Position numbers and translations under genes: made by a program
Part shown: piece after piece, positions 24,440 through 45,986 of the stretch
Numbering within the stretch: position 1 is the first letter of the stretch
How the letters are laid out: every line of letters begins with the position of its first letter
Origin: Phycisphaerae bacterium
GTDB taxonomy: Bacteria; Planctomycetota; Phycisphaerae; UBA1845; JAFGLZ01
Reading direction: 5' to 3'
Assembly (NCBI GenBank): GCA_016927755.1
Contig: JAFGLZ010000241.1
Span: forward strand, 62,001-126,000
DNA: 64,000 nucleotides
The notes under the pieces: model-generated
Told to the model about the DNA's origin: nothing
Databases searched by the model: none
The model's input: only the letters and a program-made list of their open reading frames with translations

Positions 24440-24793
24440 CGGTTCCTCCTGTCTCTGATGCCGCCTTCGGATCGGACGGGCCCCGCCAGGGCCGGCCCGC
24501 GCCGGCGGGCTTCAGGATCACATGCAATGGTATGGGGCGTAAGGCTTGGCGCTTGTCCGTCATCGCGGTCTTCGTCGCGGGCGCCGTCGAGATTGTCACG
24601 GTGCCGCCTCTGCCCATTCCGGCGACGGTTCCCCCCTCGGCGCAATGCTCCTTGCTTCAGGAAGGGCGGTGACTAAACTAACCCCCGTGCTCGGCCGGCC
24701 AAAGCCACCTTGTGCCCTTGGTCGGCGGCACGGGACTCGTGGCAGTTTAGCATGGACCGACCCTCCAGGGGTACCCCAGCAGGGAGCCAAGGA

Positions 24794-27069: not shown

Positions 27070-30000
27070 ATGTCACGGAGGTCCGAGGCCATGACGGCAG
27101 CGATGGCGTATCTGGCGCTGATGTGCGGCGCGACGGATGGCGGGATTATCGACGTCCAATGCGCGCCGACCGGCGTCTTTGACGTCAAGGTAGACGGGCG
27201 GACGGTGATGCGGGGCGAGTTGAGCTGCCACGGGCCGCAGTGGCAGGGCGTGGACCAGACCGAGGCGAGGGACCTCACGGGTCCGGAGGCGGGGCGGGTC
27301 AGCGGCGCGATGGCCATGCCCCCCGGCAACAAAGGTTTGTGGCGGTTCGACGAGACGGTGCGACAGGTCGAGGGCGGCAATCAGATCGACTACGCCGTGA
27401 CGTTCGAGCAGGACAACGAGATCAAGCTACAGGCCCTGACGCTGCGTCTGCCGGAGGAGGTCTTCGCGGGGCGGTCGGTCACGTTCTTCCCGGCCGAGTC
27501 GCGGATCGAGCTGCCGCGCGCCAAGAGCGGCTTGCGCTCGGAGCATTTCGGCTGGGCGGCGGCTGTCGAGCTTGATTCGCATCGCGTGCTCCTGATCCGA
27601 ACCGATCAGGCCACGCTGCTGAGCCTCATGGACTACCGGCAGTGGAACGGCAAGGGCTTCGGCCTCAACATCAGGATGGTCGGCGAGGGCAAGGTTCCAG
27701 CCGGGGCGTCGACGCGGCGGAGGATCACGCTCTCTGTCGTCTCGCCGTCGGAGGCCAAGCGAGTGTCCGCCCGGTGGTGGCCCGACTTCGACCGGACTCA
27801 GCCGAGCCTGCTGTTGGACGCCAACGGTCGCGTGTGGATGCGCGATCGGCAGCGGGACTACGTCACGGGCGTCATCGAGCCGCAAGGGATCCATTGGGCC
27901 TACAGCTCGCAGGACGAGATGGTCGGCTGGAGCGATGACTGGGAGGGCGGTCAGACGATCACGGGTACGATTCCGGTTCGTGGTCCCGGGGGGACGTCGT
28001 TGTGGTTTCGCCAGACGGCGCGAGCGAGAGAGGATGGGGTGGATCTGGCGTATGCGTTTCGATTTCCGCGAGACTGTCGGCTCAACACGTATCAGGTGAC
28101 GTGGGCGCTTCGCACGGAGGCATTCCTGGGGCGGCAGATCATCCTGACCGAGCCGCTGCCGGTGACGACAAGCGCTTCGCGTCCCACATCGTCGCCCCGT
28201 GTTGCGACGTCTCAGCGAGCGCTCGTGATCGGGCTCGACCCGCCGGAGAAGCCCGACGTCGGGACGTTCACCGTGAGTCGGGTCACGGTGGCGCCGGGGC
28301 ATCCGCTCGGCTTCGTCCTCGAGTTGGATCGTCCGACCAAGCTGTTCGTCGAGGACCGGCGCGCGGAGGACGGCCAGGAATACATGCTGAAGATCCACTC
28401 TGTGAGGGACAAGGAAGGCACGGAGGTGAGGGCGGGTGCGTCTTGGGAGGTGGGGGTCCGCGTTCGGCCGAACCGGAGGCATCAGATCGTCCTGGATGAC
28501 GCGGCGTTCGCCCACCGGACGGACACGTCGGATTGGATTCCGTTCACGCTGCCGTGGGACACGACGGCGGTGGACCTGTCGTTCCTGAACGCCGGGCCAG
28601 CGGGTCGACACGGGTTCCTACAGGTTCGGGACGATCGGTTCGTCTTCGCCGACGGGACGCCGGGGCGTTTCTGGGGCACGTGCTTCACGGCCGAGCAGAA
28701 CCTTCCGCCGCACCGAGACGCCGAGGTGACGGCACGCCGGCTTGCGAGATACGGCGCGAACATGGTGCGGATTCATCAGGCCGACGCGGGATACGCCGGC
28801 GACAACCTGTTTCGCAAAGGGCGCAAACACAATCGCACGCGCTCGCTCGATCCGAAGATGATGGACCGGCTGGACTACTTGATCGCGCAGCTCGAGGCGA
28901 ATGGGATCTACGTGTACTTCGACTTGCTGAGCACGCGGACGTTCGACGCGTCAGACGGCGTGGCCTCGGCGGAGAAGCTGGACCTCGGGGGCAAGCCGTA
29001 CACGAACTTCGACGAGCACTTGATCGCGCTCCAGGAGGAGTTCGCCCGCCAGTTCCTGACGCACGTGAATCCCTACACCAAGCTGGCCTACAAGGACGAC
29101 CCGGGCGTGGCGATGGTCGCCCTGGTCAACGAGAACGACGTCTTCAGCAGGGAGATCAAGATCGAGCCCTACCGCACCGCGTTCGAGGATCGCTACCGTG
29201 CGTGGGCGGGACTGCGGGAGGTCGACCTTCCGGACGGGACGGTCGATCTGCGTCACATGACGCCCCGGCTCATGGAGTACCTCATTGAGGTCCAGCGGTC
29301 GTACAACGAGCGGATGATGCGTTTCCTGCGGTCCTTGGGCGTGCGCGTTCCGATCACGGGATCGAACTGGACGGCAAACGCGGGTCTGGTTCGCGCGCTG
29401 GGGCCGGTCGACTTCACGGACAGCCACGCCTACTGGGATCACTGCTGGGACAACTACACGCGGATCCGCAACCGCGTGATGGTGCTCAGTCGACGGACGA
29501 TCTTCGGGCAGCTCGCCTTTCAGCGCGTATGCGACAAGCCGTTCTTTTGCAGCGAGTGGGGCCAGCCGTGGCCGAACGAGTTTCGCTCGGAGATGCCGCT
29601 GTCCGTGGCGTCGGTCACGGGGCTGCAGGGCTGGGACGGGGCGTTGATCTACACGTACGCGCATTACTCGGACCCGAACGTTGACTGCCTGTCCGGCCCG
29701 TTCGACACACTGAACGATCCCACGCTATTCGGGTTGTTCTATCACGCCGCGCTGATCGTCCGGCGAGCGGACGTGTCGGTTGCGAAGGGGCGGCTGGCCG
29801 TGCGGATTCCGGAGAAGGAGATCTTCGCGGAGAAGCCCGCCTGGCCGGGTAAATGCCCTGCCTATGACGTGGCCGCTGAGCGGAGCGTCGTGGCCACGGC
29901 GGCCGACGGCGAGGTCCCGAGCGGGTGGCGCACGATTCCGTGCAGGAAGTCGCTGCTCGGTCCGACGGAACATGTGATCGTCAGCGATACCGGTGAGTAC

Positions 30001-30468
30001 CGGCGGGACTGGGAGACGGGCGTTGCGCGTCTGGACACGCCTCGGACGCAGGCTGCCTGGGGGTTCCTCGGTCGAGTGAAAGGGCCGATCGTGCTGGGCG
30101 ACGTCGAGCTGCGGGTGACGTCGCCGTTCGCGGCGGTGGCGGTCAGCTCGCTCGCGGACTCGCCGATCGCCACGAGCGATCGCCTGCTCGTTACGGCGGT
30201 GGCCCGCGCCGAGAACACGGGCATGGTGTACGACCTGTTCCACACGCGGCGGATCGCGGCGGGGCACGGGCCGATACTCATCGAGCCGGTGCGGGGGCGG
30301 GTGTCGATACGCACGTCTCGGAATGACCTTCGTGTGCGAGGCCTGGATCCGCGGGGCCGCGAGACGATTGAGCTGCCGGTTCGGAGAGAGGGAGATCGTG
30401 TGTCGTTCGAGATCGGTCCGGGGGCAAGGACGATGTACTACGAGATCAGAGCGGGTGGTTTACGTTGA
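27070..30468 (+). CDS. Very large secreted glycoside hydrolase-like protein (GH5/clan A-like barrel within a multidomain protein)
   Basis: About 1132 aa from ATG at 27070; LARYGANMVRIHQADAGYAGDNLF, NGIYVYFDLLSTR, YKDDPGVAMVALVNENDVF, CSEWGQPWPNEFRSEMPLSVASVTGLQGWDGALIYTY. Confidence 0.7.
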   Translation: MSRRSEAMTAAMAYLALMCGATDGGIIDVQCAPTGVFDVKVDGRTVMRGELSCHGPQWQGVDQTEARDLTGPEAGRVSGAMAMPPGNKGLWRFDETVRQVEGGNQIDYAVTFEQDNEIKLQALTLRLPEEVFAGRSVTFFPAESRIELPRAKSGLRSEHFGWAAAVELDSHRVLLIRTDQATLLSLMDYRQWNGKGFGLNIRMVGEGKVPAGASTRRRITLSVVSPSEAKRVSARWWPDFDRTQPSLLLDANGRVWMRDRQRDYVTGVIEPQGIHWAYSSQDEMVGWSDDWEGGQTITGTIPVRGPGGTSLWFRQTARAREDGVDLAYAFRFPRDCRLNTYQVTWALRTEAFLGRQIILTEPLPVTTSASRPTSSPRVATSQRALVIGLDPPEKPDVGTFTVSRVTVAPGHPLGFVLELDRPTKLFVEDRRAEDGQEYMLKIHSVRDKEGTEVRAGASWEVGVRVRPNRRHQIVLDDAAFAHRTDTSDWIPFTLPWDTTAVDLSFLNAGPAGRHGFLQVRDDRFVFADGTPGRFWGTCFTAEQNLPPHRDAEVTARRLARYGANMVRIHQADAGYAGDNLFRKGRKHNRTRSLDPKMMDRLDYLIAQLEANGIYVYFDLLSTRTFDASDGVASAEKLDLGGKPYTNFDEHLIALQEEFARQFLTHVNPYTKLAYKDDPGVAMVALVNENDVFSREIKIEPYRTAFEDRYRAWAGLREVDLPDGTVDLRHMTPRLMEYLIEVQRSYNERMMRFLRSLGVRVPITGSNWTANAGLVRALGPVDFTDSHAYWDHCWDNYTRIRNRVMVLSRRTIFGQLAFQRVCDKPFFCSEWGQPWPNEFRSEMPLSVASVTGLQGWDGALIYTYAHYSDPNVDCLSGPFDTLNDPTLFGLFYHAALIVRRADVSVAKGRLAVRIPEKEIFAEKPAWPGKCPAYDVAAERSVVATAADGEVPSGWRTIPCRKSLLGPTEHVIVSDTGEYRRDWETGVARLDTPRTQAAWGFLGRVKGPIVLGDVELRVTSPFAAVAVSSLADSPIATSDRLLVTAVARAENTGMVYDLFHTRRIAAGHGPILIEPVRGRVSIRTSRNDLRVRGLDPRGRETIELPVRREGDRVSFEIGPGARTMYYEIRAGGLR

Positions 30469-30747
30469 TCGCCAGTCGGCTCCTGCCAGGAGGCCGGCGA
30501 CAGAGAGGTCCTCGTCGACGTCGGGCCAGTGGAGGCTGATGCCGCCCCCGCTGATCTCGTACCGCGCTCGCTGCTCCGAGGTAGCGCTTCGTAGCAGGGG
30601 AAACCAGACTACCGGCACGCAGATGACTCGCCCGTCCGTAAGCGTGACTCGCACCATTTCGTCCGCGAAATCAACGGACTTGGCCAAGGCCGTGGTGGGA
30701 ACGTAAGCTCGCTGGGATTCTGGGTTGTCACCAGCTTCAGCTCTCAT
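30460..30747 (-). CDS. DUF2442 domain-containing protein
   Basis: 95 aa; VDFADEMVRVTLTDGRVICVPVVWFPLLRSATSEQRARYEISGGGISLHWPDVDEDLSVAGLLAG. Confidence 0.85.
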   Translation of the reverse strand: MRAEAGDNPESQRAYVPTTALAKSVDFADEMVRVTLTDGRVICVPVVWFPLLRSATSEQRARYEISGGGISLHWPDVDEDLSVAGLLAGADWRST

Positions 30748-30804: not shown

Positions 30805-32226
30805 CTACCCCGTGCTCCGGAGCGCCAGTCGCTTGAGCAGCAGCATGAGCAGGGCCCAGAGGTTGTCCTTGTCGGGCAGGTCGCGGACGACGCGGTAGGC
30901 GCGGCGGGGGCTGAGGAAGAAGCGGCGGACGGTTCGCTTGCGGATTCGGTTCAGCTCGGCGTCGGGCACGTCGGTGAGGTTGACGAACTCCTTGCTGAAG
31001 TAGTTCCGCTCGAATTGGCTGAGCACGGGCTTGCCGATCTCCTTGGCCCAATCGGCCAAGCCCGTTCCCTCGAACGGATTGACGACGAAGATGTTCGCCG
31101 TGTGCAGGTCGGAGTGGATGGCGAAATCGCTCGTGGCCAGCAGCTCGGCTCGGGTCTCCGTGGGGAAGCCCAGCATGAAGAAGCCGTGGCAGAAGATGCC
31201 GTGCTTGAGGGCCAGCGAGATGTTGTGGCGGATCCTCTCGAGGTTGATGTTCTTCTGGAGCTTGCGCTGCAGCCTGGGCGAGGCGGTCTCGACGGCGAAG
31301 GCCATGAAGACGACGCCGGCTCGCTTGGCCTTGACGAAGAACTCCTCGTCGAGGTGATCGCCCCGCACGCCGTTGGGGAACGTCAGGCGAAGCTTCATGC
31401 CGGACTCGACGATCATGTCGAAGATCCGCTTGGCTCGAGGCAGGTCGAGGTTGAAGATGTCGTCGATGATCTCGAAGTGGCGGATGCCGTACGTGTCGTG
31501 CAGCGCTCGGATTTCGGCCAGGACGTTCTCCGGGCTCCGCGTGCGGAAGCCCTTGCCGAAGACCTGATGGCAGTAGAGGCACTTGTAGGGGCACGATCGC
31601 GTGGTGAAGATCACCATGTAGTCGTTCGTGCCGCAGCGCGACATTCGGATGAACTTCTTGTAGACCGGCAGCGGGATGAGGTCCCAGGCGGGGAAGGGGA
31701 TGCTGTCGAGGTCGTCGATGTAGCGCGTGCGCGGGTTGATGCGAACCGCTCCATTCTCGCGGAAGGCCAGTCCGTCGATGCCGGCCACGTCGGGACGTCC
31801 GTTTGTGCCGGCTTCGCGCAGCACGCGAACCAGATCGTCGAACGTCAGTTCGCCCTCACCCGTTACGGCGTAGTCGATGTCGGCGTTCTCCATGACCCGC
31901 TGCGTGTAGGCCGAGGGATGCGGGCCGCCGACGACCACGGGCAGGTCGGCGCGGACGCTCTTGGCGATGCTCGCCACCCGGTCCATGCCGCTTGATTCGT
32001 AGGTCAGCGCGCTGATGCCGACGACGTGCGGGTCATAGGCGCGGATCGCCTCGGCCAGCCGACCGTAGGGCAACTGCTCGGCCGTCATATCCATGATGCG
32101 GACGTCGACGTCGCTCTGTCTGCGCACAAATGCTGCGAGGTACATGCACCCGAGCGGCGGCATCAGCGTCGGCTGCTCTTCGTTGCGCCGCGGCTTGATC
32201 AGCAGGATTCGATACGGTTCCGCCAT
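30805..32226 (-). CDS. B12-binding-domain/radical SAM protein (paralogue 1)
   Basis: B12-domain-like VGISALTYES, VVGGPHPSAY; radical SAM CPYKCLYC; ATG at 32226 gives MAEPYRILLIKP. Confidence 0.9.
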   Translation of the reverse strand: MAEPYRILLIKPRRNEEQPTLMPPLGCMYLAAFVRRQSDVDVRIMDMTAEQLPYGRLAEAIRAYDPHVVGISALTYESSGMDRVASIAKSVRADLPVVVGGPHPSAYTQRVMENADIDYAVTGEGELTFDDLVRVLREAGTNGRPDVAGIDGLAFRENGAVRINPRTRYIDDLDSIPFPAWDLIPLPVYKKFIRMSRCGTNDYMVIFTTRSCPYKCLYCHQVFGKGFRTRSPENVLAEIRALHDTYGIRHFEIIDDIFNLDLPRAKRIFDMIVESGMKLRLTFPNGVRGDHLDEEFFVKAKRAGVVFMAFAVETASPRLQRKLQKNINLERIRHNISLALKHGIFCHGFFMLGFPTETRAELLATSDFAIHSDLHTANIFVVNPFEGTGLADWAKEIGKPVLSQFERNYFSKEFVNLTDVPDAELNRIRKRTVRRFFLSPRRAYRVVRDLPDKDNLWALLMLLLKRLALRSTG

Positions 32227-32258
32227 TGCACCCATCCGGGTCGGATGTCTTACAGAGC

Positions 32259-33659
32259 CTACACCTTGAGTAGCAGCCGTTTGACCAGGATCGTCACGAG
32301 ATACGGCAACTGCGACTTGCACGGATAGTCTCTAACGATGGACCAGACACGAGACGGCTTCAGCCAGAAACGGATCAGCCCATTCCGCCGGATGCGGTCC
32401 AGCTCCTTGTCGGGCAGGTCGGTCAGGTTCGTGAACCCCTCGCTGAGGTAGTTGTTGTCGAACCGGCTGAAGACCGGCTTGCCCATCGACTCGGCGAGCT
32501 CGGCCATCTCGGTTCCCTCGTACGCGTTGACGATGAACAGGTGGGCCGCGTGGAGCTTCGATCGCACGGCGAAGTCCACCGTCGCCTGGATCTCCTCGCG
32601 GGTCTCGCTGGGGAAGCCCAGCATGAAGAAGCCGAGGCAGAAGATGCCGTGTTTGCGCGCCAGGACGATGTTCCTCTCGATCCGCTCGAGATTGATGTTC
32701 TTTCGGAGCATTTTCTGGAGCCGCGGCGTGGCCGTCTCCACCGCGAAGGCCATGAACACCACGCCTGCCCGTCGGGCCTTGACGAAGAACTCCTCGTCCA
32801 GCCGGTCACCCCGCACGCCGTTGGGGAACGTGAGCCGCAGCTTCATCCCGGAATCGGCGATCATGTCGAAGATCTGCTTGGCCCTCGGCAGGTCGAGGTT
32901 GAAGATGTCGTCGATGATCTCGAACTCGCGAACGCCGTACTGGTCGTGCAGCGAGCGGATCTCGGCCAGGACGTTCTCCGGAGAGCGTTTTCGCAGCCCC
33001 TTGCCGAACATCTTGTGGCAGTAAAGGCACTTGTAGGGGCACGCGCGGGTCGTGAACAGCACCATGTAGTCGCCCACGCCGCTGCGGCTCATCCGATCGA
33101 ATCGCTTGTACGCGGGAATGTCGATCAGGTCCCAGGCCGGGAAGGGCAGGGCGTCCAGGTCCTCGATGTAGCGTTGTCGCGGATTGATGCGGACGTTGCC
33201 GCCGTCTCGCCAGGCCAGCCCATCGATCTTCTCGACGGGGCCGCCGTTTCGCAGAGCGGCGCTGAGTTCGTCGGCGGTGACCTCGCCCTCGCCGATCACG
33301 GCGTAGTCGATATGGGTATCCTCCATGACCTGGGTGACGTACGCGGATGGGTGCGGGCCGCCCACGACCACCGGAAGGTCGGGGTGACGTTCCTTGATGA
33401 TGGCGGCGAGTTTGTGCATCCCGTCGGATTCGAACGTCAAGGCGCTGATGCCGACCCAGTCGGGCCGGAAGTCGCGAATCCGGTCGGGGACTTCTTCATA
33501 CCGAATCTTGGCGGGGGCCATGTCGATGATGCGGACGTCGACGTCGCCGCGCCGGCGCAGATATCCCGCCAGGTATGTCATGCCCAGCGGGGGCATGAGG
33601 GACATCGTGTCGTTGTTTCGATAGGGCCTGACGAGCAGGACCTTCTGCGACGCACTCAT
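32259..33659 (-). CDS. B12-binding-domain/radical SAM protein (paralogue 2)
   Basis: VGISALTFES, VVGGPHPSAY, CPYKCLYC; strongly similar to both neighbours. Confidence 0.9.
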   Translation of the reverse strand: MSASQKVLLVRPYRNNDTMSLMPPLGMTYLAGYLRRRGDVDVRIIDMAPAKIRYEEVPDRIRDFRPDWVGISALTFESDGMHKLAAIIKERHPDLPVVVGGPHPSAYVTQVMEDTHIDYAVIGEGEVTADELSAALRNGGPVEKIDGLAWRDGGNVRINPRQRYIEDLDALPFPAWDLIDIPAYKRFDRMSRSGVGDYMVLFTTRACPYKCLYCHKMFGKGLRKRSPENVLAEIRSLHDQYGVREFEIIDDIFNLDLPRAKQIFDMIADSGMKLRLTFPNGVRGDRLDEEFFVKARRAGVVFMAFAVETATPRLQKMLRKNINLERIERNIVLARKHGIFCLGFFMLGFPSETREEIQATVDFAVRSKLHAAHLFIVNAYEGTEMAELAESMGKPVFSRFDNNYLSEGFTNLTDLPDKELDRIRRNGLIRFWLKPSRVWSIVRDYPCKSQLPYLVTILVKRLLLKV

Positions 33660-33771
33660 GGGTCAACCCAGCTCACCTGTTGGATGGTTCCACGCTTGCC
33701 GTCCTTCACGGGCTAAGGCGCCGGCTCGCGGGAGGGCAGGCGACGATCGTGACGTTGCTGACTCCAGGACG

Positions 33772-35175
33772 CTATCCTCTCTGCATCAATCGCTTCACGA
33801 GAATCGAGAGCAGCACCGGGAACCGGTCTCGATCGGGGTAGTCTCTGAGAATGGCCCAGATGCGCGACGGCTTCAGCCAGAACCGCCGGATGCCACGGCT
33901 GCGGATCGCGGCCAGCTCCTTGTCACTTAGATCCGTGAGATTGTTGAAGCCGTGACTCATGTAGGTGTCCTCGAAGTCCGAGTGCACGCGCTTGCCGAGA
34001 TTCCTGGCGAGCGTGGCCAGCGCGGTTCCTTCATAGGCGTTGACGACGAACAGGTGCGCGGCGTGCAGGTCGGAGTCGACCGCGAAGTCCACGGTCCTCT
34101 GCAACTCCTCACGGGTTTCCGTAGGGAAACCGAGCATGAAGAAGCCCTGGCACAAGATCCCCGCCTTGCGGGCGAGCGAGATGTTCTTCTTGATCTTGTC
34201 GAGCTTGACGTTCTTCTTGAGCATCTTCTGGAGGCGCGGCGTGGCCGTCTCGACCGCGAACGCCATGAAGATGCATCCGGCCTGTCGCAGCTTCGTGATG
34301 AACTCCTCGTCCATGTGGTCGCCGCGGATGCCGTTGGGAAACGTGAATCGGATCTTCATCCCGGATTCTATGATCAAATCGCAGATTCGCTTGGCCCGTT
34401 CGAGGTCGCAGTTGAAGATGTCGTCGATGATCTCGAATTCTCGGATTCCGTAGTCGTCGTAGAGCTTTCGGATCTCCTCGAGAACGTTTTCCGGTGATCG
34501 CTTGCGGAACTTCTTGCCGAACAGACCGTGACAGTAGATGCACTTGAACGGGCAGGCCCGGGACGTGAAGAGCGCCATGAAGTCGCCGCGCCCGGTGTTG
34601 GACATCCGGACGAAGTTCTTGTATTTGCGGATCGGGATGAGGTCCCAGGCCGGGAAGGGCATGGCGTCCAGATCCTCGATAAACCGTGTCTGCGGATTGG
34701 CCTGGGTCCGCCCGTTCGTTCGGTAGACGAGCCGGTCAATGTCCTGGACCGGCTCGCCGTTGCGAATGGCGGTCACCAGTTCGTCAAACGCCAACTCGCC
34801 CTCCCCGATAATCAGGTAGTCGAAATTCGCGTCCCCCATGACCTTCTCGGGGTATGCGGAAGGGTGGGGGCCGCCGCCGACGACGACCGTGTCGGGGCCC
34901 AACCGCTTGGCGATCGCCGCGGTTCGGTGGAACCCTCGAGACTCCACCGTCAGGGCCGTCACTCCGACCATGTCAGGTTTGAAGGCCCGTATCTGGTCGG
35001 TCAGGCGGGCGTAGCTCATGTTCTTCGGCGTCATGTCGATGATGCGGAGTTCGATGCCGGGTTGTTGCTGCCTGAGATAGTTGGCGAGATACATAATCCC
35101 CAATGGGGGCTCTACCGCGTAGGGCACGATGTTCTGCCGTGGTTTGATCAATAGGATGCGGTAAGTCTTCGACAT
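33772..35175 (-). CDS. B12-binding-domain/radical SAM protein (paralogue 3)
   Basis: VGVTALTVES, VVGGGPHPSAY, CPFKCIYC; start MSKTYRILLIKPRQN at 35175. Confidence 0.9.
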   Translation of the reverse strand: MSKTYRILLIKPRQNIVPYAVEPPLGIMYLANYLRQQQPGIELRIIDMTPKNMSYARLTDQIRAFKPDMVGVTALTVESRGFHRTAAIAKRLGPDTVVVGGGPHPSAYPEKVMGDANFDYLIIGEGELAFDELVTAIRNGEPVQDIDRLVYRTNGRTQANPQTRFIEDLDAMPFPAWDLIPIRKYKNFVRMSNTGRGDFMALFTSRACPFKCIYCHGLFGKKFRKRSPENVLEEIRKLYDDYGIREFEIIDDIFNCDLERAKRICDLIIESGMKIRFTFPNGIRGDHMDEEFITKLRQAGCIFMAFAVETATPRLQKMLKKNVKLDKIKKNISLARKAGILCQGFFMLGFPTETREELQRTVDFAVDSDLHAAHLFVVNAYEGTALATLARNLGKRVHSDFEDTYMSHGFNNLTDLSDKELAAIRSRGIRRFWLKPSRIWAILRDYPDRDRFPVLLSILVKRLMQRG

Positions 35176-35366
35176 CAAGACGCGCTCCACAACATATTGC
35201 TTAACAAACCGATGCGAGGCTGGGTACAGGTTGCCTCATCCGAGGATGATTGAGGGGGATACACCCTTGTGCTGAGGACCCGCCCGCCCGGATTGTGTCT
35301 TCGTTGGCAGCCCCTCCGAAGTGTACGGCCGCGATCGTGCAAGGCCTGTGCGGCGTCAAAGTTCTC

Positions 35367-35396
35367 ATTATATCCCGTTCATCGGCTTGGCGGCAA
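35367..35396 (-). promoter_or_regulatory. Sigma70-like promoter upstream of paralogue 3
   Basis: Minus strand TTGCCG-N18-TATAAT in a locally AT-richer intergenic region. Confidence 0.55.
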
Positions 35397-35498
35397 CTCC
35401 AGGTTGACATTCTCAGCCTGTCAGCGATGGCATTTCCTGCGACGTAGCCACGGACATTAGACCTTATCCATGTCGTGTAATCCCTCCTCAGGGCCGGC

Positions 35499-36509
35499 TT
35501 ACTCTTTCGGTGCACGGAGCGGGGCCACGCTCGTCTCGAACTGTCGGCATCGCAGGCATCTTGCCGGCGGGCGGCCGTTCGTCATCCCCGACAGCATCTT
35601 TCGCATCGCGGGGCCGTTGACGATCTCGGGCATGTCCGTTTCCAGGACGTTCCCGACAATCAGCTCGGCGTTGGGATCGAAGCAGCACAGAGACACGTCG
35701 CCGCTGGTCAAGATGTTGAAGTTGCCTCGCCACATCTCCAGACACATGGTCGGCGGCTCGTCTCCGAACTCGTAGAAGCAGGGCGCGAACTTGAACTGGG
35801 AGATCAGCCCATCCCAGTACGCTCGAATCTTGGGCAGATGCTTGACGTTCTCAGGCGTTACGACACAGCTCGCTCGGATCTGCGTTTCCGGTCGCTTGAG
35901 TCTCTGGAACTCGCTCACGTTGGTGCGGATCTCGTCGAGGTCGGCGCCACGGATCTCGCGGCACGTCTCGGCGTCGGGCTCGATGCTGATATTGACCACG
36001 CTCACGGGCGATTCGGCGACCATCCGCAGACGCTCGCCGGATAGCTTGGTTCCGTTCGTGAAGATGAGAACCCGCCTGCCCTTTCGGTGGGCGTAATCGA
36101 TCATGTCCCCGAGGTTCGGATTGAGCAGCGGTTCTCCGACCAGCGAGAAGGTGACACTCTCGACCGTGCGTGGAAGATGATCGATCGCCCGGCGAAAGAC
36201 GTCCTCGCTCATCAGATGCGGGCGCTTGGCCTGAATCGCGCCGCTTCCCCAGCAGTATCGGCATCGGAGGTTGCAGCCGAAGACGGGTTCGATCAGGACG
36301 CTGACGAGTCCCCAGACGCGGGGGATCTTCAGCTTGTAGTAGACGACGTTCATGGCCGCTGTCGCGATGGTTCTCGGACGTCGGATTTTCTCGAAGATCC
36401 ACTCGCCCTGGTCCGGATTTCCGAACACGACGCGTGCGCCGAGACGGTAGGCCGCCAAGACCGAACGCTCCATCAGGTTAACGCGTTCCCGCTGCATCAG
36501 GGATCCCAT
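35499..36509 (-). CDS. Radical SAM/SPASM-type protein (A)
   Basis: EPVFGCNLRCRYCW; C-terminal Cys-rich CLEMWRGNFNILTSGDVSLCCFDP...CLRCRQFET. Confidence 0.88.
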   Translation of the reverse strand: MGSLMQRERVNLMERSVLAAYRLGARVVFGNPDQGEWIFEKIRRPRTIATAAMNVVYYKLKIPRVWGLVSVLIEPVFGCNLRCRYCWGSGAIQAKRPHLMSEDVFRRAIDHLPRTVESVTFSLVGEPLLNPNLGDMIDYAHRKGRRVLIFTNGTKLSGERLRMVAESPVSVVNISIEPDAETCREIRGADLDEIRTNVSEFQRLKRPETQIRASCVVTPENVKHLPKIRAYWDGLISQFKFAPCFYEFGDEPPTMCLEMWRGNFNILTSGDVSLCCFDPNAELIVGNVLETDMPEIVNGPAMRKMLSGMTNGRPPARCLRCRQFETSVAPLRAPKE

Positions 36510-36796
36510 GGGGATTGATCTAATCGCGGTGTCGCCGCCGCCGACGCACCGGCCCGATCACCGCGCGGCTTCCGAGAGACCGCAGAGGGCGAGCCGCGCT
36601 CGAACGTCCTCTATGCACGTATTCTAGGCGCGTTTGGATGCCGGGTCACGCTGATGGTGCGAGCACGAGGTCCGATCGCGGTGGCGAAGAGGAGTCGTGC
36701 AGGCCGAAGGCGCTTGTTAGCGGAATCTCGCGGACGGGGGCTACCGCGATCCTGGCGGGGCCGGCGGATGCGTGGTGGCGTTCATTGCGGGTTTAG

Positions 36797-36826
36797 TTGA
36801 CGCACGTGATTCGGGACGTCTAGAAT
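36797..36826 (+). promoter_or_regulatory. Sigma70-like promoter for the plus-strand radical SAM gene
   Basis: TTGACG-N18-TAGAAT. Confidence 0.6.
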
Positions 36827-36969
36827 GAGTGGGTAGGGTGGGATTGAGACGTCCACATCCTCAAGCACGTCTTTGGGAGAGAGGGGCCTCGACCCTCGCG
36901 ATGTTACGTGAACAGAGGGCCTCGCGAGGCGGGCTTGATTCATCCGTTCCGTCCGAAGAGGGTGCTCCA

Positions 36970-37977
36970 GTGCTGTCGTTCTACGTTAGGAAAGTGGCTT
37001 CAGTCATCAAGACCGCGGGGCCGATCTTCGCGCTTCGGGCCGCCAAGTACAAGGTTCTGTCGCGCCTGGGCGTCGCGCAGTTGATGAGCCTGTTCCTGTG
37101 CCCGTCCCATCGGTGCAACGCGAACTGCATCCACTGCTACGAGAAGTTCGCGGCAAATAAGGGCGCGGGACTCTCCACGGCAGAGGTCAAGGACGTTCTC
37201 GATCAGTTCAAGCGGCTCGGCGGGCTGGTGGTTCATCTCTGCAGCGGAGAGTTCCTGTTGCGAGAGGACCGTATGGAGATCATCCGGTACATCAGTGACA
37301 ACCACATGTACGCGAGCGTGACCTCGAACGGTTTGCTGCTGGACGACGCGTTGTTGGATGAGCTCAAGGACGCCGGGTTGAGGGAACTGGTGGTCTCGAT
37401 CGACAGCTCCGACGGGAGCCGGCATGACGAGTTCAGGGGCGTCAAGGGTTGTTTCGAGAAGGCGACGAACGGCCTGCGGCTTGCACGAGCCAAGAGGATC
37501 AACACCGCCGTTTGGACCTACGTGAGCAAGACCAACTTCGATGCGCTCGAAGGCGTGGTCAACCTCGGCAAGGAGCTTGGCGTGGAGTACACGTGGGTGT
37601 TCTTCCCGCTGCTCTCTGGTCACATGTTCGACAAGCCCGAGGAGAACCTGACATTCGAGGAGCGGGAAGCATTTCGTAGACAGTTCAACGGGCGACCCGA
37701 GGTCCGTCTGGAGTTCGCCAAGGAATCAGACATCTGTGTCGGGGGCGGATGGAACCACGTCTGTGTCATGCCGTCGGGCGACGTGACGTTCTGCCCTCCC
37801 GTTCCCTATTCCTACGGCAACATCCGATCGAGATCACTCAGGGCTTGTCTCAAGGACATCGTTCGGGACCACAAGCGGTTCTGCCGATCCAAGTGCACCG
37901 GCCAGTGCATCGTGAACTTCCCCGAGTACCGAGAGAACTGCAACGCCACCTTCATGTATGACCAGCAGTCGACGTAG
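36970..37977 (+). CDS. Radical SAM/SPASM-type protein (B)
   Basis: LCPSHRCNANCIHCYEKF; C-terminal CVGGGWNHVCVMPSGDVTFCPP...CRSKCTGQC; GTG at 36970 with GAGGG upstream preferred over the 36829 ORF start, which sits at the predicted -10 box. Confidence 0.82.
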   Translation: MLSFYVRKVASVIKTAGPIFALRAAKYKVLSRLGVAQLMSLFLCPSHRCNANCIHCYEKFAANKGAGLSTAEVKDVLDQFKRLGGLVVHLCSGEFLLREDRMEIIRYISDNHMYASVTSNGLLLDDALLDELKDAGLRELVVSIDSSDGSRHDEFRGVKGCFEKATNGLRLARAKRINTAVWTYVSKTNFDALEGVVNLGKELGVEYTWVFFPLLSGHMFDKPEENLTFEEREAFRRQFNGRPEVRLEFAKESDICVGGGWNHVCVMPSGDVTFCPPVPYSYGNIRSRSLRACLKDIVRDHKRFCRSKCTGQCIVNFPEYRENCNATFMYDQQST

Positions 37978-38114
37978 GTCGGTCCGCGCGGCGCTGTCGT
38001 TCGGACTCGCCATTCCCCGGTAGAAACACGTGCTACTGCCCCTCTGATCCTCGCCGCGAGCGGCGTTCTCAATCGAAACGGACTTCTCGATACGTGGGAA
38101 GTCCCAGCGAGCGG

Positions 38115-39107
38115 CTACCCTCGATGGGCCCGGGGTGAGGCGATCGTCGTCTGGAACTGTCGGCATCCTAGACATCGCTGCGGTACTTGGCCATTGATCA
38201 TTGCACCCAGGAGTTGCCGCATCTGCGCTCCGTTGGTCATGGCCGCCACGCCGGTTTCCCGAACATTGCCGATGACAAGCTCTGGTTCAGGGTCGAAGCA
38301 GCATAGCGTAACGTCCCCGCTGGTCAGCAGGTTGAAGTTGCCTCGCCACATCTCCAGGCAGGTGCTGATGTGCGGGATGTCGGTCTGGTAGAGACAAGGG
38401 GCGAATTTGAACTCCGAGACGATCCCGCTCCAGTACTCCCGGACTTGTGCGAGGCGATCGAGGTTGTTCTCCGTGATGACGCACGACGCCTTGATCTGGA
38501 GGCGGTCCGGTTTGACGCGTTTGAATTCGCGAACGTTCTCGCGGATCTGGTCGAGATCCACGCCACGGTTCTCTCGAGCCGTTTCCAGATCCGGTTCTAT
38601 GCTGATATTGACGACGTCGAGCTTCGACCCGGCCAGCATCGGCACTCGGTCACCGGTGAGTTTGGTGCCGTTTGTGTACATGATTGTCCTGCGTCCTGCC
38701 CTATGGGCATAGTCGATCATCTTGGCGATGTCGGGGTGCAGCAGGGGCTCGCCCATCAGGGAGAAGATGATGCTTTCGACGGTGGCCGGCAGCGAATCGA
38801 TTGCCGAGTGAAAGACCTCCCAATCCATCAGCCGCGGCCGGTTGTTGTGCGTCTCCGGCTCGCCCCACCAGCAGTACTTACATCGGAGATTGCAGCCGTA
38901 GACGGGCTCCACCTGTACGCTGATCGGGCTCCAAATCCGCGGATTCTTGAGCTTGAAGTAGGCGAGGTTCATGACCGCGGCCAGGATCGTCCGAGGATGC
39001 CGGATCCGTTCATAGATCCACTCGCCCTGGTCGCCGCCGCCGAGGAATGCGCGGGCACCCAGCCGGTACATTCTCTTCATGAACTGGTGATAGGCTGATT
39101 CGCTCAT
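38115..39107 (-). CDS. Radical SAM/SPASM-type protein (C), close paralogue of A
   Basis: EPVYGCNLRCKYCWWGEPETHNNRPRLMDWEVF; CLEMWRGNFNLLTSGDVTLCCFDPEPELVIGNV...CLGCRQFQT. Confidence 0.88.
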   Translation of the reverse strand: MSESAYHQFMKRMYRLGARAFLGGGDQGEWIYERIRHPRTILAAVMNLAYFKLKNPRIWSPISVQVEPVYGCNLRCKYCWWGEPETHNNRPRLMDWEVFHSAIDSLPATVESIIFSLMGEPLLHPDIAKMIDYAHRAGRRTIMYTNGTKLTGDRVPMLAGSKLDVVNISIEPDLETARENRGVDLDQIRENVREFKRVKPDRLQIKASCVITENNLDRLAQVREYWSGIVSEFKFAPCLYQTDIPHISTCLEMWRGNFNLLTSGDVTLCCFDPEPELVIGNVRETGVAAMTNGAQMRQLLGAMINGQVPQRCLGCRQFQTTIASPRAHRG

Positions 39108-39215
39108 CGGGCGCCTTCTCTCGCGGCTCCGTGAGCCGCATGCCGCTCACGCCAAACACCCTAATTGTAGGCCCTTGCCGGGCCCAGGTCACGCCGTCAA
39201 GGCGGTCTTGCAGTC

Positions 39216-41426
39216 TCATCGTCGGGCCGCGCTGCGCATCGCGCGAGCGGCAGGTGCCTCGATCGGTTCCAGATGTCCTCCGTCGACGTCGTCGCGTATG
39301 AACCGATAACCCTTCCTGCCCGAGAAGTGGCCGAGCACGCGGAGGTTCGTATTCGGTGGGAATCTTCGACTCATGTCATGATCCAGGTCCCGGGCGAAGA
39401 TGACGGGGTCATCCAACGTCGGCGAGTTCATCCAGAAGGCCGCGCCGTAGTAGTCCGGCAGGACTTGGCCGCCCTTGATGGAGCGATAGTGGGTCGATTC
39501 GACGAAGACGATCGCGTCGGTGCACTGCTCCTTATGGACGGCGTTTCGGACGGCCGGGTCGGTCGTCCAATAGGAATTGCCGTATTCCGCGACGAGATCC
39601 GGGACGAAGCCCACCAGGCATCCGAGGGTTGCCAGGCTGATCAGCGCCCATGTTCCAGCCTGGGCGTATCGCGCGGGGTGGCACAGGTGCCGCGCCTTCA
39701 TCCGACGCTGTAACGCGCGACGGAGCTTGCCGAGACCTAGCGCCACCAGCATCAGATACGCGGGCATTGCCGCCGCGTAGTAGCGCGGGCCGTAGCAGGA
39801 GTCGCCGAAATGGTAGAGGAGGTAGCCAATCGGCAGCGACGCCCCGACGGCGAGGATCAGCCTCGCCCGCCAGCGTCTCGCCGAGCACAGTCCGCCGATC
39901 AGCATGAGCAGCAACGTGCCCCGCGGCCAGCCCAGCAGCTTCCACGCGAGCGATTCCAGTTGCCGCGTCATCTTGGCGATGCCTCGCATCGGCGTGTGGT
40001 ATCGGCCGTGGTCTGGCCAGTACGGCATGCCGACGTCGTCGCCGAACCCCAATCGATCGGACGGCGCCCACTTGGCGTAGGCGGTTTCGAGGGCGTGACC
40101 GGTCAAGGCCTTGTTGTAAGCCAGCAAGGGTAAGACGCCGATGATCGCGCCGACCAGGAACGCTGGGATCATCGCAATGCCGGCGCGTCGCTGGATGATT
40201 CGGAGCAGGACGTAGACCGCATAGGGCACGGCCAGAAGCAGGGCGGTATAGGGCCGAAACCACGTGCCGCATCCCCACGCCAGGCCGGCGAGCAAGGCGT
40301 GATACCACCGGCCGGACGGACCGGTTCCCATCATCGCCAGCACGGCGAAAACGAGCAGGACCGTTACCGAGCCCGGGTGAGACATGTTCGAGGCGAACGT
40401 CAGCACCCAGAACGGGGAGACGACCGCCAACAGCACGGTCAGCCTGCCGACGCGATCGCCGAAGAGCCGATCGGCCAGCAGGAACAAGAGGACGATGGCC
40501 ACCGCGGACAGCAGGGGATGGATCACCCACGGCGCCCCGACCAGCACGCCCATCGCCAGCAGCACGGACGGACCGGGGAAGTATTTGCCGTACCAGCGAT
40601 CGCCGTCGATGACCACGTATTCGTAGTCGAAGGCTTCCGGCATCGGAGGGGCCGGGGCGCAGACCCGTCCGGCGGCGAGGTTCTTGGCCTGGAACAGAAA
40701 GGCGATTTCGTCTTGGACGTGAGGCATGTGGTCGAGCACGAAGTAGGCGAAGGCCCCGGAGAAGGCCACTGACAGGCCCGCACACGTCGCCAGAAGCCAC
40801 CGCTTCGGCACCTTCATGACGAACCATCGGGCGCGGGCCAGCGCACGGGGCGCTGCCAGGCCGATTGCCACGGCCACGCCGATCAGTCCACCCAGGCGGA
40901 TCGTGCCGTAGACAATGGCGGTTGTGTATTCCTTGATGCTCAACTCGATGATGTTTCGGGGGTAAGGCAGGAGTGGCAGCAAGGCCAGCAGGATCAGCCC
41001 GCCGCCGGCCCATCGAAACGCGAACCGAGCCTCGGCGGATCGAGGCTCGGCAGGGGGTTGGCTTCCATCGGCCAGCACGCATCGAGCGACGGACATGAGC
41101 AACAGCACGCCGATCGACCAGGGCAGCATCAGCGTCACGGGGATCGTCTGGTGGAGGTCCAAGCCTCGGGCGAGTTGTGGGGACAAGGCGGTGAGGATCA
41201 CCGGCCAGAGGAGCCGACCGACGGCCGTGCCGAAGTTCGCGCTGCCTCGACGCGACAATCCTCTGTCGAGTCGGGCACACGTCAGCCAGCACGCCGCCAG
41301 CAGGGCCGCCCAGGCCAGATGGCCTGCCCAACCGGGCAGGTCATCGATGGGGGCCATCTGATGACGGATTGCCAGCAGGGGCAGCCACACCAGAACGATA
41401 ATGATGAGATCGACGGCGAGCATCAC
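39216..41426 (-). CDS. Polytopic membrane glycosyltransferase-like protein (PMT/GT39-GT83-like)
   Basis: 736 aa with many TM segments; luminal-loop-like DHMPHVQDEIAFLFQAKNLAAGRV, YGKYFPGPS. Confidence 0.7.
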   Translation of the reverse strand: MMLAVDLIIIVLVWLPLLAIRHQMAPIDDLPGWAGHLAWAALLAACWLTCARLDRGLSRRGSANFGTAVGRLLWPVILTALSPQLARGLDLHQTIPVTLMLPWSIGVLLLMSVARCVLADGSQPPAEPRSAEARFAFRWAGGGLILLALLPLLPYPRNIIELSIKEYTTAIVYGTIRLGGLIGVAVAIGLAAPRALARARWFVMKVPKRWLLATCAGLSVAFSGAFAYFVLDHMPHVQDEIAFLFQAKNLAAGRVCAPAPPMPEAFDYEYVVIDGDRWYGKYFPGPSVLLAMGVLVGAPWVIHPLLSAVAIVLLFLLADRLFGDRVGRLTVLLAVVSPFWVLTFASNMSHPGSVTVLLVFAVLAMMGTGPSGRWYHALLAGLAWGCGTWFRPYTALLLAVPYAVYVLLRIIQRRAGIAMIPAFLVGAIIGVLPLLAYNKALTGHALETAYAKWAPSDRLGFGDDVGMPYWPDHGRYHTPMRGIAKMTRQLESLAWKLLGWPRGTLLLMLIGGLCSARRWRARLILAVGASLPIGYLLYHFGDSCYGPRYYAAAMPAYLMLVALGLGKLRRALQRRMKARHLCHPARYAQAGTWALISLATLGCLVGFVPDLVAEYGNSYWTTDPAVRNAVHKEQCTDAIVFVESTHYRSIKGGQVLPDYYGAAFWMNSPTLDDPVIFARDLDHDMSRRFPPNTNLRVLGHFSGRKGYRFIRDDVDGGHLEPIEAPAARAMRSAARR

Positions 41427-41487: not shown

Positions 41488-42510
41488 CTAGGCCATGGTC
41501 TCGAGCCGCCAGCGCGTTATCTCGTTGGCCAGAGGCTTGCCGCGCGCGAACCGAAGGATCTCGTCCACGGCGTACTGGCCCTGGCGGAATCGCCCGTTGT
41601 TTTTGTGACCGGCGATGTGGTTGGTCACGATCACGTTGGGCAGCGAGAAGAACGGATGGTCGTCCGGCGGCGGCTCGGGATCGGTCACGTCGATCATCGC
41701 GAAGAGCCGCCCCTTGGCGAGCTCGGCGGCCAGGGCTGCTTCATCGAGGTTCTGACCACGCGACGTGTTGATGAAGATCGCGTGATCCTTCATCATCCGG
41801 AACTCCGCCGCCCCCATCATGTGCCGGGTCGTCGGCAGGGCCGGCGCGCACAGGCTGACCATGTCGCTTCGGCGGAGGAGCGTCTCAAGGTCGACCTTCT
41901 CGGCGCCGAGTTCGGCCGCCTCGGCGTCCGTGACGTAGGGATCGTACAGGAGCGTGCGGACCTCAAAGCTCCGCAGGAGCTTGCAGAGCTCGCGTCCCAC
42001 GAGGCTGGCCGAGATGACGCCGACATCGATGTCGAACATTTCGATGACCTTCGCGCCCGACTCCTCCGCCAGTTCCTCGCTCCGTCGCGACCAGTGCCCC
42101 GCGCGGGTCAGAGGGGGAATCGTCCATCCTCGCTTGCCCGCCACGATGAGGAATCCCAGGATCATGTGCGCCACCCCGACGGCCAGGGCGTGATTGCAGC
42201 TTGCCAGCCGGACTCCGCGATCGAACAGTGCCTCATCGACCAGGTGGTGAACCGACCCGGCCGAGTGCATGACGAGCTTGAGACGCTTGGCCGCCTCGAG
42301 GATCGCGCCCTTGACGGGCGGAGAGCCCCAGCAGGTCAGCATGATATCCGCTCGGCTGAGCAGGTCTTCAGGCGGGACATCCTCGGTGCTCTTCATCGGC
42401 CCGCCGATCGGCCTCACCTCGGCTTCGAGGCGTTCGATGTCTTGCGGGCGGAAGCACGCCGAGAGCATCTCCTCGGTGAGCAGATAGCAGATCGTCGGCT
42501 TGTCGGGCAC
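41488..42510 (-). CDS. D-isomer-specific 2-hydroxyacid dehydrogenase family protein
   Basis: 340 aa; FDIDVGVISASLVGRELCKLL, HAIFINTSRGQNLDEAALAAEL, PNVIVTNHIAGHKNNG. Confidence 0.85.
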   Translation of the reverse strand: MPDKPTICYLLTEEMLSACFRPQDIERLEAEVRPIGGPMKSTEDVPPEDLLSRADIMLTCWGSPPVKGAILEAAKRLKLVMHSAGSVHHLVDEALFDRGVRLASCNHALAVGVAHMILGFLIVAGKRGWTIPPLTRAGHWSRRSEELAEESGAKVIEMFDIDVGVISASLVGRELCKLLRSFEVRTLLYDPYVTDAEAAELGAEKVDLETLLRRSDMVSLCAPALPTTRHMMGAAEFRMMKDHAIFINTSRGQNLDEAALAAELAKGRLFAMIDVTDPEPPPDDHPFFSLPNVIVTNHIAGHKNNGRFRQGQYAVDEILRFARGKPLANEITRWRLETMA

Positions 42511-43717: not shown

Positions 43718-43742
43718 CCCGAGGCGTGAGGAGGCCGTAGTG

Positions 43743-45986
43743 ATGAGATGCCTGCCATTGGCCGTTTTGTTGTCGGTGTTTGTCTGGTACCTGACGCCGT
43801 CGACGGTCACCGCGGACGAGCGAAAGACGCTCATCTTCGAGGTCGAGGATTACACGACGCCCAAGGACGCTTGGGAGACGAACAAGTTCTCCGAGACGAA
43901 GTGGAACCTGTGGAGCACCGACAAGGAGGCGGACAAGAAGTGGTCCGGCGGCGTCGTGCTCCAGTCCCCCCGGGTGTTGAAGGATCGCGACAAGCCCGAG
44001 GACGGGGCTCCTCCTCTGCATACGCACATTACGGGTATTCCGAAGGGGCGCTGGGACGTCTCTCTCGGGAACGTCGGGCGCGTGCTAGCCGTGTCGATGG
44101 ACGGCAAGCAGTGGCGGCCCGTTAGCGGACGGGACGCCTACTTGGGCGCCTTCGACATCGTCGGCGGCACGTTCGACGTGTGGGTCGACGATCGTTACGC
44201 GTCGCCGGCAAACGCCGGCTCGAGTTACTATGACTACCTGATCTTCGAGCCGCTGCGGCCACGGGTGGTCAGGCCGAAGGTTGCCGGGTGGGCCAAGCAG
44301 CGAGTGATCGAGCGTATCGACCGTGGCTTGGTCGCATTGCCGGTTGAGGGTGGCGTCTACGTTGGCTGGCGACTGCTCGCCTCGGACCCGAAGGATACCA
44401 CGTTCAACGTCTACCGATGCGCCGGCGGCTCTCAGCCGGTCAAGCTCAACGAAGAGCCAATCGGCAAGACGACGGATTTCGTGGATCGGAGCGCGCCGCG
44501 AGATGCGGCGCTGACCTACACCGTTCGCCCGATCGCCGACGGCAAGGAGGCTGGGCCCTCCTCACCGGGGACGGTGGCTCGCGACGCCAAGCCTGCCGGC
44601 TATGTGTCCATCAAGCTGAAGGGCGATCACACGTTCCAGAAGGTCGGCATCGCGGACCTCAACGGCGACGGCAAGTACGACTTCGTCCTCAAGCAGCCCA
44701 ACACGAACATCGATCCATGGATCAAGTACTACCATCCCAGCAAGGGCACGTACAAGATCGAGGCCTATCTCGGCGACGGCACGTTCCTCTGGCAGAACGA
44801 TCTCGGCTGGTCGATCGAGCAGGGGATCTGGTACTCGCCCTATCTGGTCTGGGACTTCGACGGCGACGGCAAGGCCGAGGTGGCCGTCAAGACCGGCCAG
44901 GGTGATCCTCGGGATCCCGACGGGCTGGTCACGTCCGGGCCCGAGTACCTGTCGATCAGGGACGGCATGACCGGCAAGGAGACCGCGCGCGTCGACTGGC
45001 CCTCGCGAGAAGGGTATCGCGGCGATCGCGCGCACGCGTACAACTACTACTGCCGCAACCAGCTCGGTGTGGCATACCTCGACGGCAAGACGCCTTGTCT
45101 GATCGTCGAGCGCGGCACTTACGGATTGATCAAGGTCGTCGCGTATCAGTACCGCGGCGGCAAGCTGAGCGAGCTGTGGCGATGGGACAACCGGCAGGAG
45201 GGGCGTAACTTCCGCGGGCAGGGCGCGCACTTCCTGCACTGCGTCGATATCGATGCCGACGGGCGGGACGAGGTGCTGATCGGCAGCGCCGTGATTGACG
45301 ACGACGGGGCTTCCTTGTGGACGACCGGGCTCGGCCATCCGGACCACTTCTACGTTGGCGACATCGACCCGTCGCGACCGGGGTTGGAGATCTACTACGG
45401 CATGGAAAGCCGGCAGCCCAAGAACGGGATGTGCCTGGTCGACGCCAGGACGGGCAAGCTCGTCTGGGGGCTCGGCGATCGGACCTTCCATATTCATGCC
45501 TCGGGCATGTGCGCGGACATCGATCCGAACCACCCGGGCATGGAATGCTACGGCGGCGAGGCCGCGAAGGCTCCTGAGGGGAAGAACCGCCGCTGGCTCT
45601 TCACCGCTCAGGGCGAACTGCTCGCCAGGGAGAAGACGTTCGACCACGGGTGTTCGATACGGACCGTCTACTGGGACGCCGATCCATACCGCGAGATGCT
45701 GCTCGGCAACAAGATCCAGAAGCACGGGGGCAAGACGTTGACCGAATCGATCGCCGGCGGCCATGCCGCCTGGGCCGACATCCTCGGCGACTGGCGCGAG
45801 GAGGTGATCACGTCCGTCGCGGGCGAGCTTCGGATCTACACGACGACGATCCCGGCGACCGATCGCCGCGTCTGCCTGATGCAGGACCCGATCCATCGTA
45901 TCGACGTGGCCCATCTGTCCATGGGCTATCCGCAGCCGCCGATGACGACTTTCTGTCCGTCGGCGACGGTGAGCGCATCGAGATAG
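43743..45986 (+). CDS. Rhamnogalacturonan lyase family (PL11-like)
   Basis: Signal peptide; IADLNGDGKYDFVLKQPNTNIDPW, YLVWDFDGDGKAEVAVKTGQGDPRDPDGLVTSGPEYLSIRDGMTGKE. Confidence 0.88.
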   Translation: MRCLPLAVLLSVFVWYLTPSTVTADERKTLIFEVEDYTTPKDAWETNKFSETKWNLWSTDKEADKKWSGGVVLQSPRVLKDRDKPEDGAPPLHTHITGIPKGRWDVSLGNVGRVLAVSMDGKQWRPVSGRDAYLGAFDIVGGTFDVWVDDRYASPANAGSSYYDYLIFEPLRPRVVRPKVAGWAKQRVIERIDRGLVALPVEGGVYVGWRLLASDPKDTTFNVYRCAGGSQPVKLNEEPIGKTTDFVDRSAPRDAALTYTVRPIADGKEAGPSSPGTVARDAKPAGYVSIKLKGDHTFQKVGIADLNGDGKYDFVLKQPNTNIDPWIKYYHPSKGTYKIEAYLGDGTFLWQNDLGWSIEQGIWYSPYLVWDFDGDGKAEVAVKTGQGDPRDPDGLVTSGPEYLSIRDGMTGKETARVDWPSREGYRGDRAHAYNYYCRNQLGVAYLDGKTPCLIVERGTYGLIKVVAYQYRGGKLSELWRWDNRQEGRNFRGQGAHFLHCVDIDADGRDEVLIGSAVIDDDGASLWTTGLGHPDHFYVGDIDPSRPGLEIYYGMESRQPKNGMCLVDARTGKLVWGLGDRTFHIHASGMCADIDPNHPGMECYGGEAAKAPEGKNRRWLFTAQGELLAREKTFDHGCSIRTVYWDADPYREMLLGNKIQKHGGKTLTESIAGGHAAWADILGDWREEVITSVAGELRIYTTTIPATDRRVCLMQDPIHRIDVAHLSMGYPQPPMTTFCPSATVSASR

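Follow-up and report, generated by a model that had tools for sequence, protein, structure and literature searches.

What does a bacterium do with six radical S-adenosylmethionine (SAM) genes packed into ~8.3 kb beside a gene for a polytopic membrane glycosyltransferase? Such a set is found at positions 30805–41426 of the 64,000-nucleotide stretch analyzed here (the window), which derives from a Phycisphaerae bacterium of the phylum Planctomycetota. It comprises seven genes in ~10.6 kb, six for radical SAM proteins (A–F) and one for the glycosyltransferase (GT). The initial annotation read the set as a pathway for an unusual lipid, glycan or cofactor. Of these three, the comparative evidence favors a glycan, on account of the neighborhoods of sequence relatives, and lends less support to a lipid or a cofactor. 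The most likely role of the set, in which we have moderate confidence, is the tailoring of a sugar destined for a glycan or glycolipid of the cell surface. The genes, together with an adjacent one whose membership of the set is uncertain, are as follows:

A, 30805..32226, minus strand: B12-binding/radical SAM protein with CPYKCLYC; PF02310 85.2 bits, PF04055 71.5 bits
B, 32259..33659, minus strand: B12-binding/radical SAM protein with CPYKCLYC; PF02310 91.3 bits, PF04055 81.2 bits
C, 33772..35175, minus strand: B12-binding/radical SAM protein with CPFKCIYC; PF02310 85.8 bits, PF04055 81.8 bits
D, 35499..36509, minus strand: radical SAM protein with a twitch-type C-terminus; PF04055 66.9 bits, PF13186 40.9 bits
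E, 36970..37977, plus strand: radical SAM protein with a Cys-rich, SPASM-like C-terminus; PF04055 79 bits, no SPASM match
F, 38115..39107, minus strand: twitch-type radical SAM protein, paralogue of D; PF04055 64.7 bits, PF13186 33.3 bits
GT, 39216..41426, minus strand: polytopic GT-C-like protein; PMT_2 (PF13231) 36.8 bits, cut-off 26.1
2-hydroxyacid dehydrogenase, 41488..42510, minus strand: PF02826 151 bits; same strand as GT, 61 bp away

Measured against the Pfam gathering cut-offs (B12-binding 32.1 bits, Radical_SAM 29.5 bits, PMT_2 26.1 bits), the scores of A–F and GT exclude chance matches, and the CxxxCxxC motif is intact in all six radical SAM proteins. The three tandem B12-binding/radical SAM paralogues of the initial annotation are thus borne out (A–C score 85–91 bits against PF02310 and 71–82 bits against PF04055), and its multi-spanning GT39/GT83-like protein is likewise confirmed by the PMT_2 score and about 12 hydrophobic segments. 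Its three SPASM-type proteins stand in part: D, E, and F are radical SAM proteins (65–79 bits), but only D and F match the SPASM model PF13186, and in truncated form.

A–C are 58–64% identical to each other (A and B 64%, A and C 58%) and constitute a separate clade with 100/100 support in a maximum-likelihood tree. In the same kind of tree D and F, which are 59% identical, form a separate clade with a 47% identical copy elsewhere in the genome (G000:C143, cut by the contig end). As each clade stands on its own, both groups look like expansions within the lineage. The three radical SAM cysteines of A–C are invariant across 21 aligned sequences, the B12-binding folds are intact, and the order of an N-terminal B12 domain followed by a CX3CX2C domain is that of class 1 cobalamin-dependent radical SAM enzymes. 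The DxHxxG motif, which provides the ligand under the cobalt, is absent from B and C in the alignment, which fits His-off binding; a DPHVVG sequence in A is coincidental, since it aligns elsewhere (PDMVG in C).

None of A–C exceeds the cut-off of a curated NCBIfam model. The best named match is Sden_1168 (165–179 bits, cut-off 575), followed by BchE (149–164 bits, cut-off 481), ApyD (139–156 bits, cut-off 750), HpnJ (124–156 bits, cut-off 577.6), the ladderane-associated TIGR04072 (103–132 bits, cut-off 360) and AprD4 (64–94 bits, cut-off 500), with a weak match to rSAM_ocin_1. HpnJ, BchE, and Sden_1168 share the B12-binding and radical SAM architecture of A–C, but the scores fall far below these equivalog cut-offs and the set contains no hopanoid, bacteriochlorophyll or phosphonate genes. 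An AF2 model of C (predicted local distance difference test score, pLDDT, 89.6) matches the folds of TsrM, AprD4, MgmA, TokK, OxsB, and CysS. Of these, AprD4 with paromamine gives the best length-balanced match (TM-scores 0.74/0.76); AprD4 is also the top sequence match of C in the PDB (phmmer E 4.5e-23), and its fold is matched over the full length. The domain order of A–C is that of AprD4, a B12-fold diol dehydratase, and of GenK and GenD1, cobalamin-dependent radical SAM enzymes that C-methylate aminoglycoside sugars (PMC4340712), and sugar-type substrates as in these three enzymes are plausible for A–C. In contrast to them, the set has three tandem paralogues with an intact B12-binding domain and, in place of an aminoglycoside cluster, a GT-C neighbor.

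The genome as a whole (G000) has 28 B12-binding domain matches above the cut-off, nearly all in open reading frames (ORFs) of radical SAM length. No match to CobS (PF02654) was found in this 98.7% complete genome, which, given the many B12-binding proteins, suggests reliance on imported cobalamin. Membership of the viperin-type defense proteins was rejected, as the pVip models gave 47–61 bits and reflect the shared radical SAM core only.

A full SPASM motif has seven cysteines, CX9-15GX4C-gap-CX2CX5CX3C-gap-C (PMC6231123), and a twitch domain is a truncated SPASM domain with one auxiliary cluster (PMC6231123; PMC9012708). The seven-cysteine motif occurs in none of D, E, and F. D has CX13GX4C at residues 256–275 and CLRC at 318–321, F has the same pattern at 250–269 and 312–315, and in both the remaining SPASM cysteines are absent. 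Holding only the first four cysteines of the motif, D and F are twitch-type proteins like BtrN and are expected from their sequence to bind one auxiliary cluster; in D, cysteines 256, 275, 276, 318, and 321 are invariant in 17 aligned relatives. E has CX13GX4C and additional cysteines, the total being eight from residue 303 onward, and has neither a Pfam SPASM match nor CX2CX5CX3C. The best NCBIfam matches are TIGR04317 for D and F (72–74 bits, cut-off 380) and AhbD for E (125 bits, cut-off 500). As no protein of the set scores above an NCBIfam cut-off, the six radical SAM genes could be assigned to no curated family.

The nearest solved relatives of D include BtrN and DesII, and that of E is the cytosylglucuronate decarboxylase BlsE (E 2.7e-14). 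The model of D (pLDDT 86.8) matches DesII, SuiB, BtrN, and anSME about equally, and SkfB as well. The twitch dehydrogenase BtrN is a leading match (TMt 0.72) and shares the CX13GX4C-gap-CX2C pattern of D and F, which are nevertheless only about 16–18% identical to it and carry an extra helical N-terminus.

GT has about 12 hydrophobic or transmembrane segments, and its PMT_2 score, its many transmembrane helices and an acidic motif are those of GT-C enzymes (PMT_2, GT39/GT83-like). The acidic motif lies in DHMPHVQDEIAFLFQAK, in the first large loop, and the QDE motif is conserved with a paralogue of 54% identity at G000:C168 (L134), whose neighbors are SSF transporters, an alpha-L-fucosidase and a fucose/arabinose isomerase-like gene. 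PMT_2 proteins are numerous in this genome, with 52 matches above the cut-off.

Relatives were sought in 100 genomes from the order, a further 347 from the class and 394 others from the phylum (389 for E); none of these is of the same family, and co-occurrence was tested at class and phylum distance. The closest B12-type relative of C outside the genome (L109, 42% identity) lies in a cluster with Wzz, a tyrosine-kinase-like AAA_31 protein, a Wzx-type flippase, a Wzy/O-antigen ligase and a methyltransferase, alongside four more radical SAM genes, two of the SPASM type and two of the B12 type. The closest relatives of E (29–33% identity) include three tandem copies at L159, where the neighbors are two GT4 glycosyltransferases, a GDP-mannose dehydratase-like epimerase, a methyltransferase and a Wzt O-polysaccharide exporter; more distant relatives of E in f85, f40, and f106 share another conserved neighborhood. 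Relatives of D and F (~30% identity, full length) sit in a conserved cluster found in several families of the phylum. Of 20 such loci, all contain a second radical SAM gene and 19 a third. A polytopic TPR-type GT-C protein accompanies them in 15 loci and a GT9 glycosyltransferase in 16; in the four loci without GT9 the stretch is cut short by a contig end.

Within the same genome, paralogues like A–C (33–37% identity) lie beside PMT_2 proteins on contigs C137 (L127) and C274 (L126), the latter with a DegT aminotransferase and YfhO in addition, and a more distant one lies beside GT2 and PMT_2 on C4 (L135). PMT_2 occurs within 5 kb of 4 of the 23 B12-radical SAM loci of the genome, against 1.1 expected (binomial p 0.024). 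Five B12-radical SAM loci outside the window, L126, L127, L128 (C84), L135, and L137 (C268), adjoin PMT_2, GT2, LPG_synthase_TM, methyltransferase or DegT genes.

Several lines of evidence support a sugar as the substrate: the glycan neighborhoods of L109, L159 and the cluster with D/F relatives; the pairing of A–C-like paralogues with PMT_2 in the same genome; solved relatives (AprD4, BlsE, BtrN, and DesII) that include sugar and aminocyclitol enzymes; and the precedent of GenK and GenD1. We infer that the seven genes form one pathway, that its substrate is a sugar, and the assignment of each reaction as follows. A–F would be cytosolic and take as their substrate a sugar attached to a nucleotide or to polyprenyl phosphate. 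With methylcobalamin and a 5′-deoxyadenosyl radical, A–C would methylate unactivated carbons or rearrange them in some other way, and each copy would probably serve its own position or step. D and F, with the single auxiliary cluster expected of them, may carry out BtrN-like two-electron chemistry, either dehydrogenating an alcohol or epimerizing it, and E may decarboxylate or deoxygenate the sugar, or perform another SPASM-like step. The 12-segment GT-C protein would then take the completed sugar off its lipid carrier and attach it to an acceptor beyond the cytoplasmic membrane. If this is correct, three parallel cobalamin-dependent enzymes act on one substrate, probably with different regiospecificity, and radical C–H functionalization, mainly known from antibiotics and cofactors, extends to bacterial surface glycans, which would be useful for glycan chemistry and for predicting the envelope structures of uncultured planctomycetes.

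Several observations weigh against this assignment. The set itself contains no sugar-nucleotide, flippase or GT9 genes. In the pooled neighborhoods of 16 loci with B12-type relatives (31–40% identity), the 25 most frequent Pfam families show no enrichment for glycan functions, so that the glycan argument rests on the nearest relatives. The co-location with PMT_2 is a weak test that loses significance at 10 kb (p 0.056), and the fold of D matches peptide enzymes (SuiB, anSME) as strongly as sugar enzymes. D and F are placed by the tree on a long branch away from the family of the conserved three-radical-SAM cluster, and homology of GT with the TPR-type GT-C protein of that cluster was rejected (hhalign probability 0.1%). 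No radical SAM genes are found near the GT paralogue on C168. Finally, the 9.25 Mb genome (274 contigs, 98.7% complete), in which the window is part of contig C41, has an estimated contamination of 7.5%, so that individual contigs could, with low probability, be foreign; the gene composition of the set is uniform with its flanks.

D and F fall in the same broad family as the first radical SAM enzyme of the conserved cluster, with invariant cysteines, and in both loci a polytopic transferase adjoins three radical SAM genes of the auxiliary-cluster kind. The cluster is, however, without B12-radical SAM genes, and its GT9 and GT-C proteins have no counterparts in the window, where no GT9 gene and no TPR-type GT-C gene adjoin the radical SAM genes. 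It is possible, though we offer the idea only tentatively, that planctomycetes use banks of radical SAM enzymes (in the window, three parallel cobalamin enzymes with twitch and SPASM-like ones) to make multiply C-methylated, deoxygenated or oxidized lipid-carried sugars for transfer by GT-C enzymes to surface glycans, and that the window set is a B12-using version of a wider, undescribed module of three radical SAM genes with glycosyltransferases that occurs in many families of the phylum. The conserved module may be the more general discovery; our literature search turned up no description of it. At L069:9142-15728 and other loci of the series L062–L081 it often follows genes for two large secreted Big_5-type proteins, and a carbamoyltransferase is sometimes nearby.

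The alternative that survives best is a lineage-specific expansion of radical SAM genes, with A–C as one family, D/F as another and E unrelated, brought together by chance, and with GT as an independent envelope enzyme. The exact set turned up in no other sampled genome, its genes are split between the two strands, promoter-like sites precede C, D, E, and F, the paralogue of GT on C168 does without a radical SAM neighbor, and with 28 B12-binding and 52 PMT_2 matches in the genome chance neighbors are not rare. We nevertheless regard this explanation as doubtful, as six radical SAM genes in ~8.3 kb, arranged as tandem or near-tandem duplicates (A-B-C and D/F) in a genome with only 12 PF13186 matches, make chance unlikely, and as L109 shows a comparable mixture of B12-radical SAM and SPASM genes inside one biosynthetic cluster.

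A membrane lipid pathway, in which A–C would act on the tail of a lipid, or on a head group of the hopanoid type, and GT would add a sugar to the lipid, appears unlikely. HpnJ and TIGR04072 are among the better NCBIfam matches of A–C, and A–C, D, E, and F all have basic, weakly amphipathic terminal segments that possibly touch the membrane. The scores, however, lie far under the cut-offs, no fatty acid, squalene, hopene cyclase or ladderane-type genes occur among the annotated immediate neighbors, and the nearest relatives adjoin polysaccharide genes. The likeness to HpnJ is itself ambiguous: HpnJ is needed for the cyclitol ether head group of hopanoids (PMC5462960), so that similarity to it cannot separate lipid-tail from sugar chemistry and makes lipid-linked sugar chemistry plausible.

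We consider it very improbable that the set modifies a ribosomally synthesized and post-translationally modified peptide (RiPP) or another peptide, with twitch and SPASM-like enzymes and with A–C as peptide C-methyltransferases. The fold of D does match SuiB, SkfB, and anSME, and A–C weakly match ApyD and rSAM_ocin_1. The ApyD scores are, however, a fraction of the cut-off, no credible precursor ORF is present in the gaps between the genes, and the set has no peptidase or peptide exporter. The sole sizeable small ORF beside the set that is led by a ribosome binding site, at 30460-30747 on the minus strand downstream of A, encodes a 95-aa DUF2442 protein, and the N-terminus of the D model is all helical and not a winged-helix RiPP recognition element. 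The initial annotation had likewise seen no support for a RiPP.

Least probable of all is the maturation of a tetrapyrrole or metallo-cofactor. E resembles the radical SAM enzymes AhbD and NirJ of heme pathways, with AhbD as its best match, BchE is among the best matches of A–C, and D/F, with TIGR04317 as their best match, resemble tungsten-cofactor maturases. All these matches score far under their cut-offs (500, 481, and 380), no tetrapyrrole or oxidoreductase genes are in the set, and a URO-D-like gene at 24710-25768 lies outside it and matches in its C-terminal part only.

How widespread is the sugar-tailoring set that we favor? The complete set of A–F and GT was found in none of the 347 class and 394 phylum genomes. 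D has no orthologue in the 100 genomes of the same order (best identity 29%) or in the 347 others of the class, and C has nothing above 33% identity in class genomes at E ≤ 1e-80; at phylum level the maxima are 42% for C and 33% for D (394 genomes) and 35% for E (389 genomes). A contig scan with C returned solely a 23% relative in Catenovulum. The initial annotation had named two findings that would speak against its reading. The first, that the genes do not co-occur in relatives, is what the survey gave at class and phylum distance; the second, that every paralogue falls into a characterized pathway, was not seen, as no paralogue could be assigned. No description of such a cluster was found in open-access papers. 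The parts are all of known kinds, and it is their combination that, within the sampled genomes, appears new.

The transcription of the set is probably divided. As E is on the opposite strand and divergent from D, the set is not one operon, and promoter-like sites upstream of C, D, E, and F, which are consensus matches only, make several transcription units likely. The start of A is probably 32226, because a longer ORF would overlap B; for E an alternative GTG start lies upstream at 36829. A recent acquisition is unsupported by base composition: E has the lowest GC content of the set (0.593, z -2.1) and an ordinary GC content at third codon positions.

Two proteins flanking the set, one of 1125 aa (27091-30468, plus strand) and one of 317 aa (46006-46959, minus strand), have no Pfam match at E ≤ 0.001. 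A family 11 rhamnogalacturonan lyase is encoded nearby (43740-45986, plus strand); enzymes of this family are typical of plant-polysaccharide degradation. Further away, at 21184-22779 on the minus strand, lies the gene for an HldE-like fusion with a cytidylyltransferase-like domain at the N-terminus and a PfkB kinase at the C-terminus, a domain order that we take to be the reverse of that in E. coli.

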